From NCBI RefSeq assembly GCF_001983935.1, contig NZ_CP017641.1:6109001-6173000 (forward strand): 64,000 bases of DNA, written 5' to 3'. Made by a program: the position numbers and the translations under genes. Below the pieces are notes generated by a model, which worked only from the letters and a program-made list of their open reading frames with translations, did no database searches and was not told where the DNA came from. Shown here piece by piece: positions 20,049-30,562 of this stretch; position 1 is the first letter of the stretch, and each line of letters begins with the position of its first letter. Source of the DNA: Fuerstiella marisgermanici. Its GTDB lineage: Bacteria > Planctomycetota > Planctomycetia > Planctomycetales > Planctomycetaceae.

Positions 20049-20732
20049 TTATCTTTCAACCTGAGTTGCCGAGGCGATGTACACCATGGCCAGCACAGAA
20101 AAAATGTAGGCCTGAATCATGCCGGTCAGCAGTCCAAACAGCTGCATCAACACGGGAATAAACAACGGCACGAAGCCGAGCAGAATGGCAGCAATCACCG
20201 TGCCGCTCATCATATTTCCGTACAAACGCACGGCCAGGGCGAGTGTCCGAGACAGCTCACCGATGACGTTAAAGGGCAGCATCAATATCGATGGCTGCAG
20301 GTACTGTTGCAGGTAGTTCCAAACGCCTTTGCGAGCGATCCCGAACATCGGCACAGCCACGAACACGCAGGTTGCCAGAGCGGCCGTCGTCGACAGTGAA
20401 CCTGTGGGAGGTGTGTAGCCAGGAAAGATGGACAGCAAGTTCGCGAATGCCAGAAACAGAAACAGCGATCCGACAAACGGCATATAACGTTCCGGTTCAC
20501 GGCCGCCCACATCCCGAATCTGATCGCGCAATGCAGACACCAGAATTTCCAGCACGTGTTGTCCCTTCGACAGTTTGGTTCCCGTCGAAAGTCGGCGCGT
20601 GACCAGCCATGAAATTCCGACCAGCAGCACCATGACCAGCCAGGTAAACAGGATCGTGCGGTTCAGCCCCACTGGCCCCCATTGCCACAACACGGCATCC
20701 GGAGAAATCTGAATATCGTTCCCGCTACTCAC
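20049..20732 (-). CDS. atpB: N-type ATPase subunit a (stator ion channel)
   Basis: The GTG at 20732 is preferred: GAGGAG lies 6 bases upstream, and it makes an 8-base overlap with atpR; an ATG at 20762 is the alternative. This gives 227 residues with five or six membrane segments. The essential stator arginine is in LAVRLYGNMMSG, matching R210 of E. coli. N-type features are the start ISPDAVLWQWGPVGLNRTIL and the segment TRRLSTGTKLS. It lies between atpR and atpE, 2 bp before atpE. Confidence 0.92.
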   Translation of the reverse strand: MSSGNDIQISPDAVLWQWGPVGLNRTILFTWLVMVLLVGISWLVTRRLSTGTKLSKGQHVLEILVSALRDQIRDVGGREPERYMPFVGSLFLFLAFANLLSIFPGYTPPTGSLSTTAALATCVFVAVPMFGIARKGVWNYLQQYLQPSILMLPFNVIGELSRTLALAVRLYGNMMSGTVIAAILLGFVPLFIPVLMQLFGLLTGMIQAYIFSVLAMVYIASATQVER

Positions 20733-21015
20733 TTCCCGCTCCTCGAAGAACGCTCCTGCCATGCGTCGCCAGCAAACGCACGCCGACGAATCCCAATAAG
20801 CAAGCAACCATCGCCCCGGCATCGCCGTTGCTGAAGTACCAGACGCCCCAACACACGATCGCCGTTCGTAGAATCATGCTTGAAATCGCCAGCAGACCAG
20901 GCCGTTTCGACGTCGGTAGCTTGCGGACAGTCGCCCACAGACCACCGAAAAAGATGACGCCTAAGACCATGCCCACGACAATCATGATTCCGTATTGAAT
21001 TAGCGGATAATCCAT
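20725..21015 (-). CDS. atpR: N-ATPase subunit AtpR
   Basis: A 96-residue protein with three hydrophobic segments (about 5-27, 41-60 and 66-84) and the sequence SSMILRTAIV, whose membrane arginine is the conserved AtpR residue thought to interact with the extra c-ring carboxylate. The ATG at 21015 shares its A with the stop codon of atpQ (TAATG), indicating translational coupling and fixing the start. AtpR occurs only in N-ATPase operons. Confidence 0.88.
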   Translation of the reverse strand: MDYPLIQYGIMIVVGMVLGVIFFGGLWATVRKLPTSKRPGLLAISSMILRTAIVCWGVWYFSNGDAGAMVACLLGFVGVRLLATHGRSVLRGAGSE

Positions 21016-21282
21016 TACCGCACCCCGCCTTCGTCTCTCAGCCAGCGCCACGCATTCCAACACCCGATAAACAGCCCCAGCAACAAAAGCATCAACGTCC
21101 ACGATCGACGACTTTCGAATCTCGCGTCAATCCACACACCAACGGCGGCCCCCATCAATGTCGGAATCGCCACCGACCAGCCCACCAGCCCGAACATTCC
21201 GAGACCGAACCAAACTTTATGGCCCTGTTCGTTTTTCGCCTTAATGCGGCGAGCTTCCTTCTTTGCAATTTCCTTTTCAACG

Positions 21283-21293
<11 letters not shown>
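21015..21293 (-). CDS. atpQ: N-ATPase subunit AtpQ (AtpI/AtpZ-like)
   Basis: A 92-residue membrane protein. A charged N-terminus (MSDDVEKEIAKKEARRIK) is followed by two membrane helices (about 27-48 and 60-78) and a basic end, as in the AtpI/AtpZ helper family that aids c-ring assembly or magnesium handling. The ATG at 21293 overlaps the end of atpC by 11 bases. A longer in-frame start exists upstream but would lie fully inside atpC. Confidence 0.88.
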
Positions 21294-23135
<1,842 letters not shown>

Positions 23136-23356
23136 TCACGTTCAATGGCGTCCGGACAAAAATCGTTGCTCTCCTCAACACAAACTCCGCAGCGCTAATC
23201 CCACAGCGCAGCAAGCAAGTCGTCCTTCACAAGCTTCAAACACAGCGCCCCCCTGTGCTTCAGCGAGACACTGATGCCGTGCATCGCCTCCGGCTTCGGC
23301 TTCGGGTTAAACGCAGTGGACCCCGGTGCTGAAGTGAGCGAAGACTCCTGCCTGTT

Positions 23357-23842
23357 CTATGCAAGATAGTGCGACAAAAACTGTGTCATCCGCTGAGGAC
23401 TTACGATCCCAATCGGCCGCTGGTCCGCATCGATGACCGGCACGTGGCGAAGACCACTGACCGCCATGATAGAAAGCACCTTCGCTGTCGAATCGTGTTG
23501 GTGCACGAACACAGGATTCGCGGTCATGACAGCTCGTATCGGCCCGTCAATCACGTCGTCGTATTCCAGGCACACTTTGTCCAGCACATCGCGATCGCCG
23601 AAGATGCCGACAAGTTTGCCATCTTCCTGCACCAGCACGCATGCGATTTGGCGGCCCACCATCAACTTCATGGTTTCGCGAACCGACGTGCTGGCCTCGA
23701 TGCACGTCATCGGCTGTGCCTGAATGCTTTCGACGGTCTTTTCGTGCAACGCCTGCTCAACAGGGTCATCGAAATTCGGGCCATCGTAGTTTTCCAACGG
23801 ATCTTCAAAACTACCAGAGTCGGTTTGATTGGAGTCGGCCAT
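23357..23842 (-). CDS. CBS-pair domain protein
   Basis: 161 residues: an acidic tail of about 35 residues, then two CBS motifs (about 38-95 and 100-160). CBS 1 contains TSVRETMKLMVGRQIACVLV and a DGKLVGIFGDRD end; CBS 2 ends in a DADQRPIGIVS block. CBS pairs bind adenine nucleotides or NAD and act as energy sensors. There is no attached catalytic domain. It begins 1 bp after the neighbouring CBS gene stops and is likely co-translated with it. The partner is unknown. Confidence 0.88.
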   Translation of the reverse strand: MADSNQTDSGSFEDPLENYDGPNFDDPVEQALHEKTVESIQAQPMTCIEASTSVRETMKLMVGRQIACVLVQEDGKLVGIFGDRDVLDKVCLEYDDVIDGPIRAVMTANPVFVHQHDSTAKVLSIMAVSGLRHVPVIDADQRPIGIVSPQRMTQFLSHYLA

Positions 23843-23843
23843 C

Positions 23844-24314
23844 TCAGGCTCCTTCTTTCCGGGTTGAAAGGTCTACGCCAGTGGCGTCCTGAGTCATCAC
23901 TTCGTGAGGAAACATCTCGGCGACAAATTCCATCATCGATTTCTGGCCAGTAATGCCGACGACATGACGGTCTTCGTCCAGAACCGCGATGAATCGAATG
24001 TTGTGCTCTTCCATCGCTTCCAGCACCATGCCGACTCCATCGGTCGGCAACACCCACGGAAGCCGCTCAACCATTTGGTGTTCTACGCTATCGTCCAGAA
24101 CCGAAATCGATTCGTTGATGGCGCTTCGCAGCATACCCTCGGTAAACATCCCGGCGGCCTTATCGTCATCATCCACGACAATCACGCATCCCAGTTTTGC
24201 CGCACGCATCTTGACAACCGCTTCGCGCACCGTGGCCGACTTATGAATCGTCGTGGCCGGGCGGAGATTCAGCTTGTTGACCGTTGTCGTTTGAAGTTGT
24301 TCCTTGAGTCCCAT
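23844..24314 (-). CDS. CBS-pair domain protein
   Basis: Two CBS motifs in 156 residues from the ATG at 24314, supported by an AGGGG sequence 8 bases upstream and by the length of its neighbour. CBS 1 reads ATTIHKSATVREAVVKMRAA and continues to DKAAGMFTEG; CBS 2 reads VGMVLEAMEEHNIRFIAVLD and RHVVGITG. An alternative ATG at 24386 overlaps the stop of the upstream haem protein gene (ATGA) and would add 24 residues. Probable operon with the other CBS gene and the haem protein gene. Confidence 0.85.
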   Translation of the reverse strand: MGLKEQLQTTTVNKLNLRPATTIHKSATVREAVVKMRAAKLGCVIVVDDDDKAAGMFTEGMLRSAINESISVLDDSVEHQMVERLPWVLPTDGVGMVLEAMEEHNIRFIAVLDEDRHVVGITGQKSMMEFVAEMFPHEVMTQDATGVDLSTRKEGA

Positions 24315-24382
24315 TTCGGACACCCCTGTTTGAACGTAACAGTGTGAAACAAACGGCGCTTCTGCCGCCGATCGTTGGTTAC

Positions 24383-24898
24383 TCATTTGCGTTGCGGTTC
24401 CAGATCCGCCAGTACAACATTCCTGACCCATTCGTGACACTTGATACAACTCATTGTGACGTTCACCCAGGCAAGTGACGCACCGTCGATCGACCGCTTG
24501 TCGGCCTTGTTGTAAAGGTCGGCGACCGCGTTGCGAAACTGCGTGCTGTGCTGCAGATACATCATGTCATTCGATGCACGCCAACGCTCTTCCTTGCTCA
24601 TCTCCAGAAGTTTGTCAGCGTTGACTGCCACTGATTTCAAATCGTCAGTCATCAGGCCTTCGAGAATGCGGCTTGAGGCGGCCAGTTTCTGCTGCATGAA
24701 TCGATCAAGAGCTCCGTCGCCAGCTTCGTTGTCGGCTTTCTTCCCGTCCTGCTGCTCCTCCGCCGCAGGCACTGCCGGTTTCGCCGCCGTGAGCTGCTTC
24801 TGAGCCGATGGCTGCTGTGCGGCTGTTCCGTTCCACTCGACGAAAAGAAAGGCAACAACGGGAATCGCAAGGAACAAGAGGGGGCGAGTTTTTCGCAT
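24383..24898 (-). CDS. small single-haem c-type cytochrome
   Basis: The ATG at 24898 has AAGGA upstream and is followed by a classic signal peptide (RKTRPLLFLAIPVVAFLFVE). The 171-residue protein is helical and exported. One c-type haem motif CIKCH lies near the end (C151, C154, H155). A helical body with a late haem site resembles four-helix cytochromes c'-like or cytochrome b562/c families. No known function can be assigned. The gene is the first of a probable operon with the two CBS-pair genes. Confidence 0.8.
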   Translation of the reverse strand: MRKTRPLLFLAIPVVAFLFVEWNGTAAQQPSAQKQLTAAKPAVPAAEEQQDGKKADNEAGDGALDRFMQQKLAASSRILEGLMTDDLKSVAVNADKLLEMSKEERWRASNDMMYLQHSTQFRNAVADLYNKADKRSIDGASLAWVNVTMSCIKCHEWVRNVVLADLEPQRK

Positions 24899-25892: not shown

Positions 25893-26438
25893 TCAGCCGT
25901 TTTCTACAGCGTCCACCCTGGCGAAAATCTCAGCGGTGTCAGGCCTGTCGTGTGGCGAATCACTTGCGAAGTAGAACCGGACTATGCCATTCGGGTCGAT
26001 CAGCACATCACCGCCAAGCTGGCGGTAGTCTGAACCCGGTTTGTGAACGCGGCGGCCGCGTAAGATCAGCTTCAGGTAGTTCCAGATCGAAGCTGGTCCC
26101 AGAATCGACCACCAGGAACCACGCCCCATTCCGTAGGCGTCGTAGGTCCGATGTTCAGAATCAATCAGCAACGGCCACCGCAAGCCAGTCTGCCGGATGT
26201 AAGACGTCGCCATCACGTCGGCGTCAAAGGTGATGATCGCCACATCGACGTTTCGATCCCGAAACTGAAGTTCCCGCTGACGCAACTGCGTCACGTGCTC
26301 ACGGCACGGCAGTCAGCCAAGGTGACGATGAAACACCAGCAGCAACCAACGACCTCGATAGTCCACCGGCCGATGCTCAACACCATCCACGTCAGGCAGC
26401 TCAAAGCCAGGAGCAGGTTTATTCAGAAGTGACATCAT
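25893..26438 (-). CDS. peroxiredoxin-like / AhpC-TSA fold selenoprotein with in-frame UGA (Sec42)
   Basis: Reading from the ATG at 26438 (or 26435) gives a full thioredoxin-fold protein of 181 residues if the TGA at 26313-26315 is read as selenocysteine. The part before it (KPAPGFELPDVDG, then RGRWLLLVFHRHLG) is the typical AhpC/TSA start, and the active site then reads U42-L-P-C45-REH, a UxxC redox motif. After it come DVAIITFDAD, LRWPLLIDSEH and a late GGDVLIDPNGIVRF strand, all in the same frame. The TGA sits exactly where relatives have the catalytic cysteine. A hairpin lies 19 bases downstream. A pseudogene or sequence error is the alternative. Without readthrough only a GTG-started fragment at 25893-26294 remains. 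Confidence 0.75.
26278..26293 (-). promoter_or_regulatory. candidate bacterial SECIS hairpin
   Basis: On the minus strand, TGACGC-AGTT-GCGTCA forms a perfect 6-bp stem with a 4-base loop. It begins 19 bases after the TGA, and the loop starts 25 bases after it with G as second base. This fits the remembered bacterial SECIS rule of a short apical loop with an early G, 16-37 bases from UGA. A competing pairing joins GCTGAC (containing the UGA) to GTCAGC at 26276-26281. Confidence 0.5.
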
Positions 26439-26722: not shown

Positions 26723-28240
26723 TTGCGAGGCAAAATGGGGGCGGATGAGTTCCGCGATTACATCCTGGGATTCATCTTTTACAAATACCTGTCTGAACGC
26801 ATGCATCTGTTCGCGGACGAGATTCTGCAGCACGACGGCATCAAGTTCGACGAAATCGACGAAGACACACCCGACGGCCTGGAAATGCTGGACGCCATCA
26901 AAGACGAATCCGTCGGGCGGCTGGGTTATTTTCTGAAACCTTCCGAACTGTTCCACCAGCTGGCTCAAAAGGGAGCTCAAAAGACCGGCAACTTCATTCT
27001 GGAAGACCTGACCGCCGTCTTAAAGCACATCGAAGCCAGCACGATGGGCCACGACAGCGAAGACGACTTCGAAGGCCTGTTCGAAGATCTCGATCTGGGC
27101 TCGTCCAAGCTGGGGAAGACCGAAAACCAGAAAAACGAACTCATCGCCAAGGTGCTCGTTCATCTGGATCAGATCGACTTTCGTCTGGCCGATACTCAGG
27201 CCGACGTGCTGGGCGATGCCTATGAATATCTGATCGGGCAGTTCGCCAGCGGAGCCGGCAAGAAGGCGGGCGAGTTCTACACGCCTCAGCAAGTCAGCAC
27301 CATTCTGGCTCGCATTGTCACCAGCGGCAAACAGAGTCTGAAAAACGTGTACGACCCCACGTGCGGTTCCGGTTCGTTGTTGTTGCGAGTCGCCAAAGAA
27401 CTGCCGGAAGGCGAACTGATTCAGTTCTATGGTCAGGAAATGAACCCGACCACCTACAACCTGGCCCGCATGAACATGATTCTGCACGGTGTGCATTATC
27501 AGCGTTTTGATTTGAAGAATGAAGACACGCTGGAACATCCCGCTCCTGAACACGCCGACCTGCGTTTCGACGCCATCGTGGCCAATCCGCCGTTTTCTGC
27601 CAAATGGTCGGCCAGTGCGATTCATGAAAACGATGACCGCTTCAGTGCTTATGGCAAACTGGCTCCCAAAACCAAAGCCGACTTTGCGTTCGTGCAGCAC
27701 ATGGTTCATCATCTGGACGACGGCGGTACGATGGCCTGCGTGTTGCCGCATGGCGTGCTGTTTCGAGGAGCCGCCGAAGGCCACATCCGCCGCTACCTGA
27801 TCGAAGACTGCAACTATCTGGACGCCGTCATCGGCCTGCCGAGCAACATTTTCTACGGCACGGGCATTCCGACCTGCATTCTGGTGTTGAAGAAGCAGCG
27901 AGATAACCCCGACGACATTCTGTTCATCGACGCCAGCCAGGGTTTCGAAAAGGTGGGCAATCAGAACGAGCTTCGCCCGGAACACATCGACCGCATCATC
28001 GACACGTTTCGCGATCGCAAGAGCATCGAAAAGCTCAGCCACGTCGCCGACCTCAGCGAGGTCGCAGAAAACGACTACAACCTGAACATCCCGAGGTATG
28101 TGGATACGTTTGATGAGGAGGAGCCGGTGGATCTGGATGAGGTCGCGGCGAAGCTCGCGGCATTAGAAAATGACATGGTGGAAACGAATTCCGTGGTTGC
28201 TGAGTTCTGTCAGGAACTTGGAATTAAGGCACCGTTCTGA
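26723..28240 (+). CDS. hsdM: type I restriction-modification system methyltransferase subunit, N-terminus damaged
   Basis: Adenine-N6 methyltransferase subunit of a type I system. An N-terminal helical domain (RGKMGADEFRDYILGFIFYK) is followed by the SAM-binding segment YDPTCGSGSLLLR and the catalytic motif NPPF in VANPPFSAKW. The start is uncertain: the conserved family sequence begins earlier (SQLWNIANTL, from 26696), but an in-frame TAA at 26693-26695 separates it from an ATG at 26684. Only a TTG (26723) or the internal ATG at 26735 can start translation, neither with a ribosome site. The gene ends in TGATG, coupled to hsdS. Confidence 0.85.
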   Translation: MRGKMGADEFRDYILGFIFYKYLSERMHLFADEILQHDGIKFDEIDEDTPDGLEMLDAIKDESVGRLGYFLKPSELFHQLAQKGAQKTGNFILEDLTAVLKHIEASTMGHDSEDDFEGLFEDLDLGSSKLGKTENQKNELIAKVLVHLDQIDFRLADTQADVLGDAYEYLIGQFASGAGKKAGEFYTPQQVSTILARIVTSGKQSLKNVYDPTCGSGSLLLRVAKELPEGELIQFYGQEMNPTTYNLARMNMILHGVHYQRFDLKNEDTLEHPAPEHADLRFDAIVANPPFSAKWSASAIHENDDRFSAYGKLAPKTKADFAFVQHMVHHLDDGGTMACVLPHGVLFRGAAEGHIRRYLIEDCNYLDAVIGLPSNIFYGTGIPTCILVLKKQRDNPDDILFIDASQGFEKVGNQNELRPEHIDRIIDTFRDRKSIEKLSHVADLSEVAENDYNLNIPRYVDTFDEEEPVDLDEVAAKLAALENDMVETNSVVAEFCQELGIKAPF

Positions 28241-29466
28241 TGAACCCAACAAAAATGCAAGCATCGCCGAGGTTGAGGTTTCCAGAGTTTGCAGGCCACT
28301 GGCAAACTCTAACTCTGCGAGATCACGGTATTTCAGTAATTGATGGTGACCGAGGTAAAAACTACCCCAACGGCGATGATTTTTCCGCAAACGGCTACTG
28401 CCTGTTCCTCAACGCGAAAAATGTGGCGTCCTCAGGATTCGTGTTCAGCGATGTCTCGTTCATTTCTGAGGAAAAGGACCGCCAGTTAAGTAAAGGGAAA
28501 CTCGAAGCTGAGGACGTTGTTTTGACGACCAGAGGTACCGTGGGGAATATCGCCTTCTTTGGTCGCGATATTCCGTATCGACAGATGCGGATAAACTCAG
28601 GAATGGTCCTCCTCCGTTGCAGTGACAAGAAGATTTCGCCGCAGTTTCTTTACTCTGCTTTCTTTGCTCCGCCTTTAGATGGCGATGTTAAAAGAACCGC
28701 ATTCGGGAGCGCCCAGCCACAGCTTACGGTCAAAGGGATCTACGCTCTCAAATTCGGCGCACCAGCAATCCCTGAGCAACAAAAGATTGGGGATTTCTTG
28801 ACGGCGGTGGATGGGCGGATTCAGCAACTGAGCCAAAAGAAAGCCCCGCTTCAGGACTACAAGAAGGGCGTGATGCAACAGCTCTTCACCCAAGCCCTCC
28901 GCTTCAAAGACGACCACGGCAACGACTTCCCCGATTGGGAAGAGAAGACGGTCGATGATGTCGCAGACTGTTTGGACAATCTCCGCCGGCCCGTGAACAG
29001 TGCTGATCGCGAAAAGATGAAGGGCGAAATTCCGTATTACGGAGCAAATGGAATTCAGGGTTACGTAAACGATTTTCTATTCGACGACGATCTCACACTG
29101 TTGGCTGAAGACGGGGGAAACTTTGATGATTTTGCACCCCGTCCAATTGCTCAGCGGGTCTGCGGTAAAGCCTGGGTCAACAACCACGCCCACATCCTCC
29201 GCGCAAAGGCGACGCTAATGACGCCGGACTTCCTGTTTTATTGCCTCGTCCACAAGGACATCCGGCGATACATCAATGGCTCATCCCGGGCAAAACTCAA
29301 CAAGGGAGACATGCTGACGATCAAAGTGGCAGCGCCGTCGGTAGCCGAACAAACCAAGATCGCGAACTTCCTCACGGCGTTGGACCGTAAGATCGAAAGC
29401 GTGTCGCAGCAGATCACCCACACCCAAACCTTCAAACGCGGCCTGCTGCAGCAGATGTTCGTCTGA
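28240..29466 (+). CDS. hsdS: type I restriction-modification specificity subunit
   Basis: DNA-recognition subunit, 408 residues. Two target-recognition domains (about 12-180 and 225-375) each end with a conserved helix: FLTAVDGRIQQLSQKKAPLQ then KGVMQQLF, and FLTALDRKIESVSQQ then RGLLQQMF. The repeated spacing determines a bipartite target, which cannot be read from sequence. Its ATG overlaps the hsdM stop by one base. Confidence 0.93.
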   Translation: MNPTKMQASPRLRFPEFAGHWQTLTLRDHGISVIDGDRGKNYPNGDDFSANGYCLFLNAKNVASSGFVFSDVSFISEEKDRQLSKGKLEAEDVVLTTRGTVGNIAFFGRDIPYRQMRINSGMVLLRCSDKKISPQFLYSAFFAPPLDGDVKRTAFGSAQPQLTVKGIYALKFGAPAIPEQQKIGDFLTAVDGRIQQLSQKKAPLQDYKKGVMQQLFTQALRFKDDHGNDFPDWEEKTVDDVADCLDNLRRPVNSADREKMKGEIPYYGANGIQGYVNDFLFDDDLTLLAEDGGNFDDFAPRPIAQRVCGKAWVNNHAHILRAKATLMTPDFLFYCLVHKDIRRYINGSSRAKLNKGDMLTIKVAAPSVAEQTKIANFLTALDRKIESVSQQITHTQTFKRGLLQQMFV

Positions 29467-30057: not shown

Positions 30058-30562
30058 AGCCCTGAAAGGGCGACCTAACTCCAAACGCCGCCATGCCACA
30101 ATCTCTGGCCAATCTGTACATTCACCTGATCTTCTCAACGAAAGATCGCTTCCCGTTTCTAACCGACGACGTTCGCCCCGATCTGCACGCCTACATGGCC
30201 ACCGTTTTGGCCAATCTGAATTCCCCCGCCATGCTGATTAACTCGGTACAAGACCATGTGCACATTCTTTTCACAATGAGTCGCACGGTCACGCTGGCTC
30301 AGGTTGTGGAAGACGTAAAGAAGTCGTCTTCAAAATGGATTAAGACGCAGTCACCCCAGTTGGCCGCTTTTGCGTGGCAGGCGGGATACGGTGGGTTTTC
30401 TGTCAGCGAATCCAACGTGCCGAAGGTTGAGAGCTACATCCGTCGACAGGAAGAGCATCATCGTGTGAAATCATTTCAGGAAGAATACCAAGCGTTTTTG
30501 ATGAAGCACAACATTCAATACGATGAACGCTATGTGTGGGATTAGGTCGCCCTTTCAGGGCT
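30058..30562 (+). mobile_element. REP-associated / IS200-like transposase element with inverted flanks
   Basis: A 21-base sequence at 30058-30078 (core GCCCTGAAAGGGCGACCTAA) is repeated exactly in inverted orientation at 30542-30562, where it includes the transposase stop codon. The 505-bp unit holds only the transposase gene. Related repeats continue on both sides, as in REP/RAYT units. It lies between hsdS and hsdR. Confidence 0.75.
30093..30545 (+). CDS. HUH-type transposase, IS200 / REP-associated (Y1_Tnp)
   Basis: Single-strand DNA transposase, 150 residues. The HUH metal motif is HVH in VQDHVHILF (about 59-61) and the nucleophile tyrosine is in ESYIRRQEEHH (about 127). The end FQEEYQAFLMKHNIQYDERY is typical for stand-alone Y1 transposases of this size. 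These enzymes cut and move DNA via hairpins such as those in the flanking repeats. The gene appears intact and sits in the same direction as the hsd genes. Whether it is a RAYT domesticated for REP maintenance or a mobile IS200-like element cannot be decided from one copy. Confidence 0.85.
   Translation: MPQSLANLYIHLIFSTKDRFPFLTDDVRPDLHAYMATVLANLNSPAMLINSVQDHVHILFTMSRTVTLAQVVEDVKKSSSKWIKTQSPQLAAFAWQAGYGGFSVSESNVPKVESYIRRQEEHHRVKSFQEEYQAFLMKHNIQYDERYVWD

Follow-up and report, generated by a model that had tools for sequence, protein, structure and literature searches.

Under the plain bacterial code, one gene of Fuerstiella marisgermanici is split at its own active site, because an in-frame TGA stands where the first residue of a redox motif would be expected. 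Is this TGA a stop, or does it encode selenocysteine (Sec)? We analysed the gene within a window of 64 kb (the whole stretch of DNA under study, positions 6109001-6173000 of a genome that consists of one contig of 8,920,478 bases). At a probability of about 0.95, we conclude that it encodes a selenoprotein with a thioredoxin fold, a member of a SelL-related (Prx-like UxxC) family, and that UGA codon 42 is decoded as Sec via SelB and an AGUU hairpin. The basis of this selenoprotein reading is computed: the frame, a conserved Sec/Cys site, a covarying SECIS element, Sec machinery encoded by the genome and a confidently predicted fold. From this we infer expression, Sec insertion, substrate, reductant and place in the cell. 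The coordinates of all features are given in Table 1.

Table 1. Features of the selenoprotein gene and of the selenocysteine machinery (window positions, unless marked as genome positions).
Feature	Position	Strand	Evidence and remarks
CDS, 181-aa SelL-related UxxC selenoprotein (predicted)	25893..26438	-	ATG 26438, stop TGA 25893-25895; NF040769 and AhpC-TSA matches; alignment to several relatives begins at residue 1
In-frame TGA, codon 42, read as selenocysteine (predicted)	26313..26315	-	Sec/Cys in relatives; 52 distinct TGA-bearing sequences including the window
TGC codon of Cys45, partner of Sec42 in U-L-P-C	26304..26306	-	Invariant in the 80-row alignment A4
Bacterial SECIS hairpin (predicted)	26278..26293	-	Stem 26288-26293 / 26278-26283, apical loop AGUU 26284-26287; covariation, TTG loop codon, common loop and spacing
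tRNA-Sec	genome 1515309-1515400		79.7 bits, anticodon TCA, above cut-off
selA	genome 1590006-1591346		505.8 bits, above cut-off
selB	genome 2822687-2824543		336.2 bits, above cut-off
selD (L018)	genome 1587774-1588730		263.2 bits, above cut-off; inside a 772-aa frame

The reading frame and its internal TGA

The minus-strand frame (26438-25896) comprises 181 codons, and its translation (MMSLLNK...FHRHLG-U-LPCREH...VENG) contains the TGA at codon 42 as its sole internal stop. Neither TAA or TAG codons nor a frameshift occur within the frame, and the terminal stop is a TGA as well. With the internal TGA read as Sec, the protein matches the AhpC-TSA profile (PF00578) with 66.7 bits and the NCBIfam model NF040769 'SelL-related redox protein' with 168.2 bits (curated cut-off 120), residues 8-173 aligning with positions 2-171 of the 173 profile positions. 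A preliminary description of this DNA had proposed an AhpC/TSA-type protein in a minus-strand frame that runs through one TGA without a frameshift; our analysis supports both the assignment and the frame, and identity to relatives extends past the TGA. For eight of the 14 relatives compared, namely those nearest by search rank and the same-genus one, identity to the window protein was 56-67% before the TGA and 48-63% after it, while the other six gave 41-68% and 26-50%, respectively. That is, the in-frame UGA is flanked by conserved coding sequence on either side and aligns with Cys in homologues, as is characteristic of bacterial selenoproteins.

The conservation upstream of the TGA also bears on the possibility that translation starts beyond it. 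The 133-aa ORF that is present there, beginning with the GTG at 26294, would give a shorter product without the redox motif. We regard this start as very improbable: the range of 56-67% given above for the eight near relatives is that of residues 1-41, in the structural model the short product would be without strand 31-36 and would retain helix 43-54 only in part, and positions 42 and 45 are invariant in alignment A4 (80 rows; the Sec of L031 was written as C, and two rows, L049 with CxxA and L125 with CxxT, were left out).

In the neighbourhood, the gene is adjoined by the type I restriction-modification genes HsdM and HsdS, followed by an IS200-like transposase (window 26723-29463 (+) and 30093-30542 (+)). 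Window positions 20052-24449 (-) encode ATP synthase subunits, of the alpha/beta type and the A chain, and two ORFs with CBS domains are close by; this may be an ATP synthase operon.

Selenocysteine or cysteine in the relatives

When 170 genomes of the same family were searched at the protein level, 161 contained some match, and the best 30 matches were typed. At the position of codon 42, eight of these encode a TGA and 22 a Cys. tRNA-Sec was detected in 61 of the 170 genomes; among the best 30 matches, it was present in seven of the eight TGA genomes compared with seven of the 22 genomes with Cys (Fisher p 0.012, uncorrected for relatedness, many of the 22 being of one genus). For the TGA-bearing draft genome G168, the best tRNA-Sec match reached 46.4 bits against a cut-off of 47, also in a lone search, and selB was present. 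selB was above the cut-off in seven of the eight TGA genomes, and the eighth (G058) carries a fragment of it at a contig end.

The Cys found at this position in relatives would suit a reading in which a near-cognate tRNA or a leaky stop turns the UGA into Trp or Cys. Such a route is hardly compatible with the way in which tRNA-Sec tracks the TGA form in the above counts, nor with the presence of Sec machinery and of a SECIS-type hairpin (see below). In addition, ten of the 22 hand-listed long ORFs in the window end in TGA. We consider translation by this other route highly unlikely and retain Sec at codon 42.

In a second approach, a genome collection was scanned with two peptide patterns, one of which requires Cys at the codon-42 position and neither of which requires a TGA. 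The scan matched 210 stretches, 128 of which code for a relative, and the top 80 were retained. The loci examined number 118 (L021-L138), all typed except for L025. Some are duplicates, the window gene appearing as L021 and again as L029, and L030 of G168 being identical to L069 (record named Planctomycetaceae). Among the 117 typed loci, we found 58 UxxC, two UxxU (one gene twice), 54 CxxC, one CxxA, one CxxT and one misframed sequence. Sec or Cys thus occupies the codon-42 position in 116 of them, and the misframed L103, which lies on a frameshifted contig, reads U-L-P-C once another frame is used. Homologues with an unrelated residue at this codon, which according to the preliminary description would speak against a selenoprotein, did not occur among the typed loci. 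By their record names, the TGA-bearing loci belong to Planctomycetota, Akkermansiaceae, Desulfuromonadales, Desulfobacterales, Hydrogenedentota, Acidobacteria, Chloroflexi-side taxa, Acidimicrobiales and Myxococcota, and they comprise 52 distinct sequences, the window included. Among viral contigs, 57 stretches matched the scan, and none of them is a relative.

A TGA shared by 52 distinct sequences of several phyla is difficult to reconcile with a true stop, with an ordinary Cys gene misread in sequencing or with a pseudogene. It also makes a correction of the TGA from the reads, which the preliminary description had named as a refutation, very unlikely. Such a reading can point to the frame, which is split under table 11 with only the 133-aa GTG ORF listed past the TGA, and to a same-genus relative (L034, 1489-1962 (+)) that looks truncated further downstream. 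L034 keeps the Sec motif and loses similarity past approximately residue 118; two of the six stem pairs of its hairpin are mismatched, and its missing end was not found within 3.3 kb around the locus. Protein identity between the window gene and its relatives nevertheless continues beyond the TGA, and compensatory changes keep the hairpin (see below), which leaves very little probability for a stop, an error or a pseudogene. Since the TGA is shared, both of its sides are conserved and the stem covaries, we rejected sequencing error, pseudogene and downstream start in favour of a functional Sec codon.

The host genome encodes two Cys-type members of the family above the cut-off as well (690833-691294 and 3397094-3397570). 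A TGA lies inside one of its 37 AhpC-TSA matches, the gene studied here, and one other match contains a TAA. A quick maximum-likelihood tree was built from 80 of the 101 available sequences, with positions 42 and 45 masked. It places the window sequence in a clade of 22 rows, all of them Sec forms (SH-aLRT 96), which is nested in a 29-row all-Sec group with a lower support of 82. Six Sec/Cys changes are needed on this tree, versus about 25 in shuffles. With UxxC, UxxU and CxxC forms on one tree, the family is suited for tests of a second Sec or of Cys in place of Sec.

The AGUU hairpin, the Sec machinery and a second gene

Downstream of the TGA lies the hairpin TGACGC-AGTT-GCGTCA, with 25 bases between TGA and loop. 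The preliminary description had given it a stem of 6 bp and an AGTT loop and had placed its start 19 bases past the TGA, and this is what we found. Taken alone, the 18 nt of the hairpin have a folding energy of -8.7 kcal/mol, which one of 200 dinucleotide shuffles reaches. Folding 46 nt of the window gave an unremarkable stability (z -1.04; 32 of 200 shuffles did equally well); the fold of the single sequence is therefore only suggestive, and the comparison with relatives settles the matter. Among the constraints on bacterial SECIS elements, PMC13188914 lists a loop of 3-9 nt, a stem of 4-16 bp, a G in the first two loop positions, a distance of 16-37 nt from the UGA and an MFE <= -7.5. Compared by these published constraints rather than by bSECISearch, the window hairpin lies within all of them (loop 4 nt, stem 6 bp, G second, 25 nt, -8.7 kcal/mol).

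An AGTT loop 25 nt past the TGA is present in 34 of the 52 distinct TGA-bearing sequences. When these 34 were aligned (A2), 95.6% of the cells of the six-pair stem paired versus 74.4% after shuffling, and 52 cells showed two-sided changes versus 15.6 in shuffles and no more than 13 when the register was slid. Such changes occurred in five of the six stem pairs. Two of the five covariation measures on A2 were not clear of the shuffles: the number of stem pairs in which both sides change was matched in 53 of 500 shuffles, and the number of further pair types in 186 of 500. RNAalifold recovered the same hairpin unprompted, plus one extra pair. With all 52 sequences (A3), the register is paired in 76.9% of the cells with 67 two-sided changes, compared to 61.2% and 28 for a slide of -3, and 51.9% and 42 for a slide of +3. 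What had been suggested as a bacterial SECIS from one sequence is thus borne out by covariation among TGA-bearing relatives, and the gene provides a covariation-supported SECIS of exact geometry.

The hairpin also seems to leave its mark on codon usage. Among the 52 sequences, the loop codon encodes Leu 34 times, and all 34 are TTG, while 5.4 TTG would be expected from the Leu usage of the same genes; these sequences are related and do not represent 34 independent events. Synonymous recoding gave a mean z of -1.52 for the 52 Sec genes (40 of them under -1) versus -0.34 for 49 Cys genes (nine of 49).

The remaining 18 of the 52 TGA sequences have no AGTT loop at this position. Their best hairpins, chosen for each sequence by a procedure with no control of its own, carry loops at 20-32 nt and are in part strong; those of L106, L107 and L131 comprise no more than 3-4 pairs. 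Six loci that group in the tree (L036, L093, L096, L101, L102 and L105) have a best hairpin with a loop of three bases (GTC/GGC/GGT/GGG) 21 nt past the TGA, a different SECIS geometry within the same family. In another relative (L031/L074, the same gene; record named Planctomycetaceae), the motif is U-L-P-U, with two Sec and one hairpin, the loop of which is 25 and 16 nt away from the TGAs.

The preliminary description had seen no selA, selB, selC or selD in the window and had proposed to look for them in the genome. Our genome searches for selA, selB, selD and tRNA-Sec likewise list no match inside the 64-kb window; all four, including a tRNA-Sec(UCA), are present elsewhere in the genome (Table 1), and a lack of Sec machinery, which the preliminary description had named as a refutation, is not observed. 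The 772-aa open frame around selD points to a fused gene, which may correspond to the Ndh-SelD type of PMC2398784, and selA lies about 1.3 kb away. In the proposed decoding, SelB carrying Sec-tRNA(UCA) would bind the AGUU hairpin 25 nt past the UGA, Sec would be delivered at codon 42, and the ribosome would continue to residue 181.

A search of the host genome for FdhA revealed six matches, among them a partial one with an inner TGA. FdhA was rejected as a second selenoprotein, since none of the six was above the cut-off and the match with the inner TGA turned out to be FmdB. When read through, this gene (L139:185-1522 (-), genome 5981084-5982421) matches TIGR03129 with 492.2 bits (cut-off 327.8). 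Formylmethanofuran dehydrogenase subunit B (FmdB) is thus apparently the second selenoprotein of the host, with Sec116 in the motif L-U-H-G-P; for a Rhodopirellula planctomycete, FmdB has already been published as a selenoprotein (PMC4807772). Its hairpin, CCGCCC-AGTT-GGGTGG, again has the loop 25 nt past the TGA. The bare pattern TGA-N24-CAGTTG is not enriched in the whole genome (67 places versus 67 in the reversed control), and at two of these places, this gene and FmdB, all six stem pairs are formed, the next best having four in a row. As about 0.5 full stems are expected by chance (a rough estimate from base composition), the count of two genes is weak when taken alone, and the identity of both genes is the argument. 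Sec use in the host genome thereby reaches at least two genes.

The more unusual part of these findings is that the AGUU/25-nt signal is constant across phyla and reused in FmdB. We tentatively propose, at somewhat less than even odds, that the SelB/SECIS code of the lineage is narrowly fixed. A C-G-closed AGUU tetraloop exactly 25 nt past the UGA would serve two unrelated selenoproteins (SelL-related and FmdB) in one genome, would be strong enough in relatives of several phyla to hold the minor Leu codon TTG, and in the UxxU relative both Sec residues would be inserted by means of a single hairpin, at 25 and 16 nt from the two UGAs.

Fold, active site and comparison with known systems

The AlphaFold2 model, built with 80 sequences, displays a thioredoxin/Prx fold (pLDDT 92.8). 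The UxxC motif stands where a predicted helix (43-54) begins, after a strand (31-36), which is the arrangement of thioredoxin-like CxxC/UxxC oxidoreductases. The best Foldseek matches include a Bcp-type peroxiredoxin (Bcp4), ResA and human prostamide/prostaglandin F synthase (PGFS). In profile alignments to ResA and to a thioredoxin-family protein, Sec42 falls on the first Cys of CxxC. Aligned to 2ywn, it falls on the Thr of the peroxiredoxin TxxC, and Cys45 on the peroxidatic Cys. The TGA had been described as lying at the catalytic position; this holds in the thioredoxin sense, as the first residue of UxxC, and fails in the sense of a peroxidatic Cys. A true peroxiredoxin (TxxC) was rejected for the same reason, that Sec42 is at the Thr position.

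Judged from the family, the protein is likely a UxxC thioredoxin-like oxidoreductase or a thiol peroxidase. Sec42 would act as a fast nucleophile on a peroxide or a disulfide and would form a selenenylsulfide with Cys45 as the resolving residue, which a thioredoxin-type donor may re-reduce.

How does the protein compare with known systems? With respect to NF040769, where it scores above the curated cut-off, we found no difference, and a single limited literature search for this accession and related phrases revealed no paper. ResA is membrane-anchored and located outside the cytoplasm. It shares the fold and aligns the first Cys of its CxxC with Sec42, whereas the window protein has no apparent signal sequence by eye. 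Human PGFS (PDB 9us9, 9usa) matches in fold (TMq 0.76, rmsd 1.9 over 167 columns) and by profile over residues 16-174. Its redox pair C44/C47, named in the entry title, consists of Cys instead of Sec, the identity is 16%, and C44 may correspond to Sec42.

A strict SelL, with two Sec in UxxU, was rejected, since the window protein has one Sec in U-L-P-C. SelL is said to form a diselenide within its UxxU motif, a report attributed to Shchedrina in 2007. The SelL of aquatic animals is a Prx-like protein (PMC3473315, PMC2398784), as is the window protein; the UxxU form occurs in the relative L031/L074 only, whereas the window protein is UxxC with one Sec and has its own SECIS inside the frame, as in bacteria. 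Table 1 of PMC13188914 lists bacterial Prx-like thiol:disulfide oxidoreductase selenoproteins with PF00578 and UxxC or UxxU. Likened to these by description rather than by example sequence, the window protein, possibly of the same subfamily, is PF00578 and UxxC with one Sec, and a relative is UxxU. The window gene is a well-supported new example of the already known Prx-like UxxC/UxxU selenoproteins, as described in PMC2398784 and PMC13188914.
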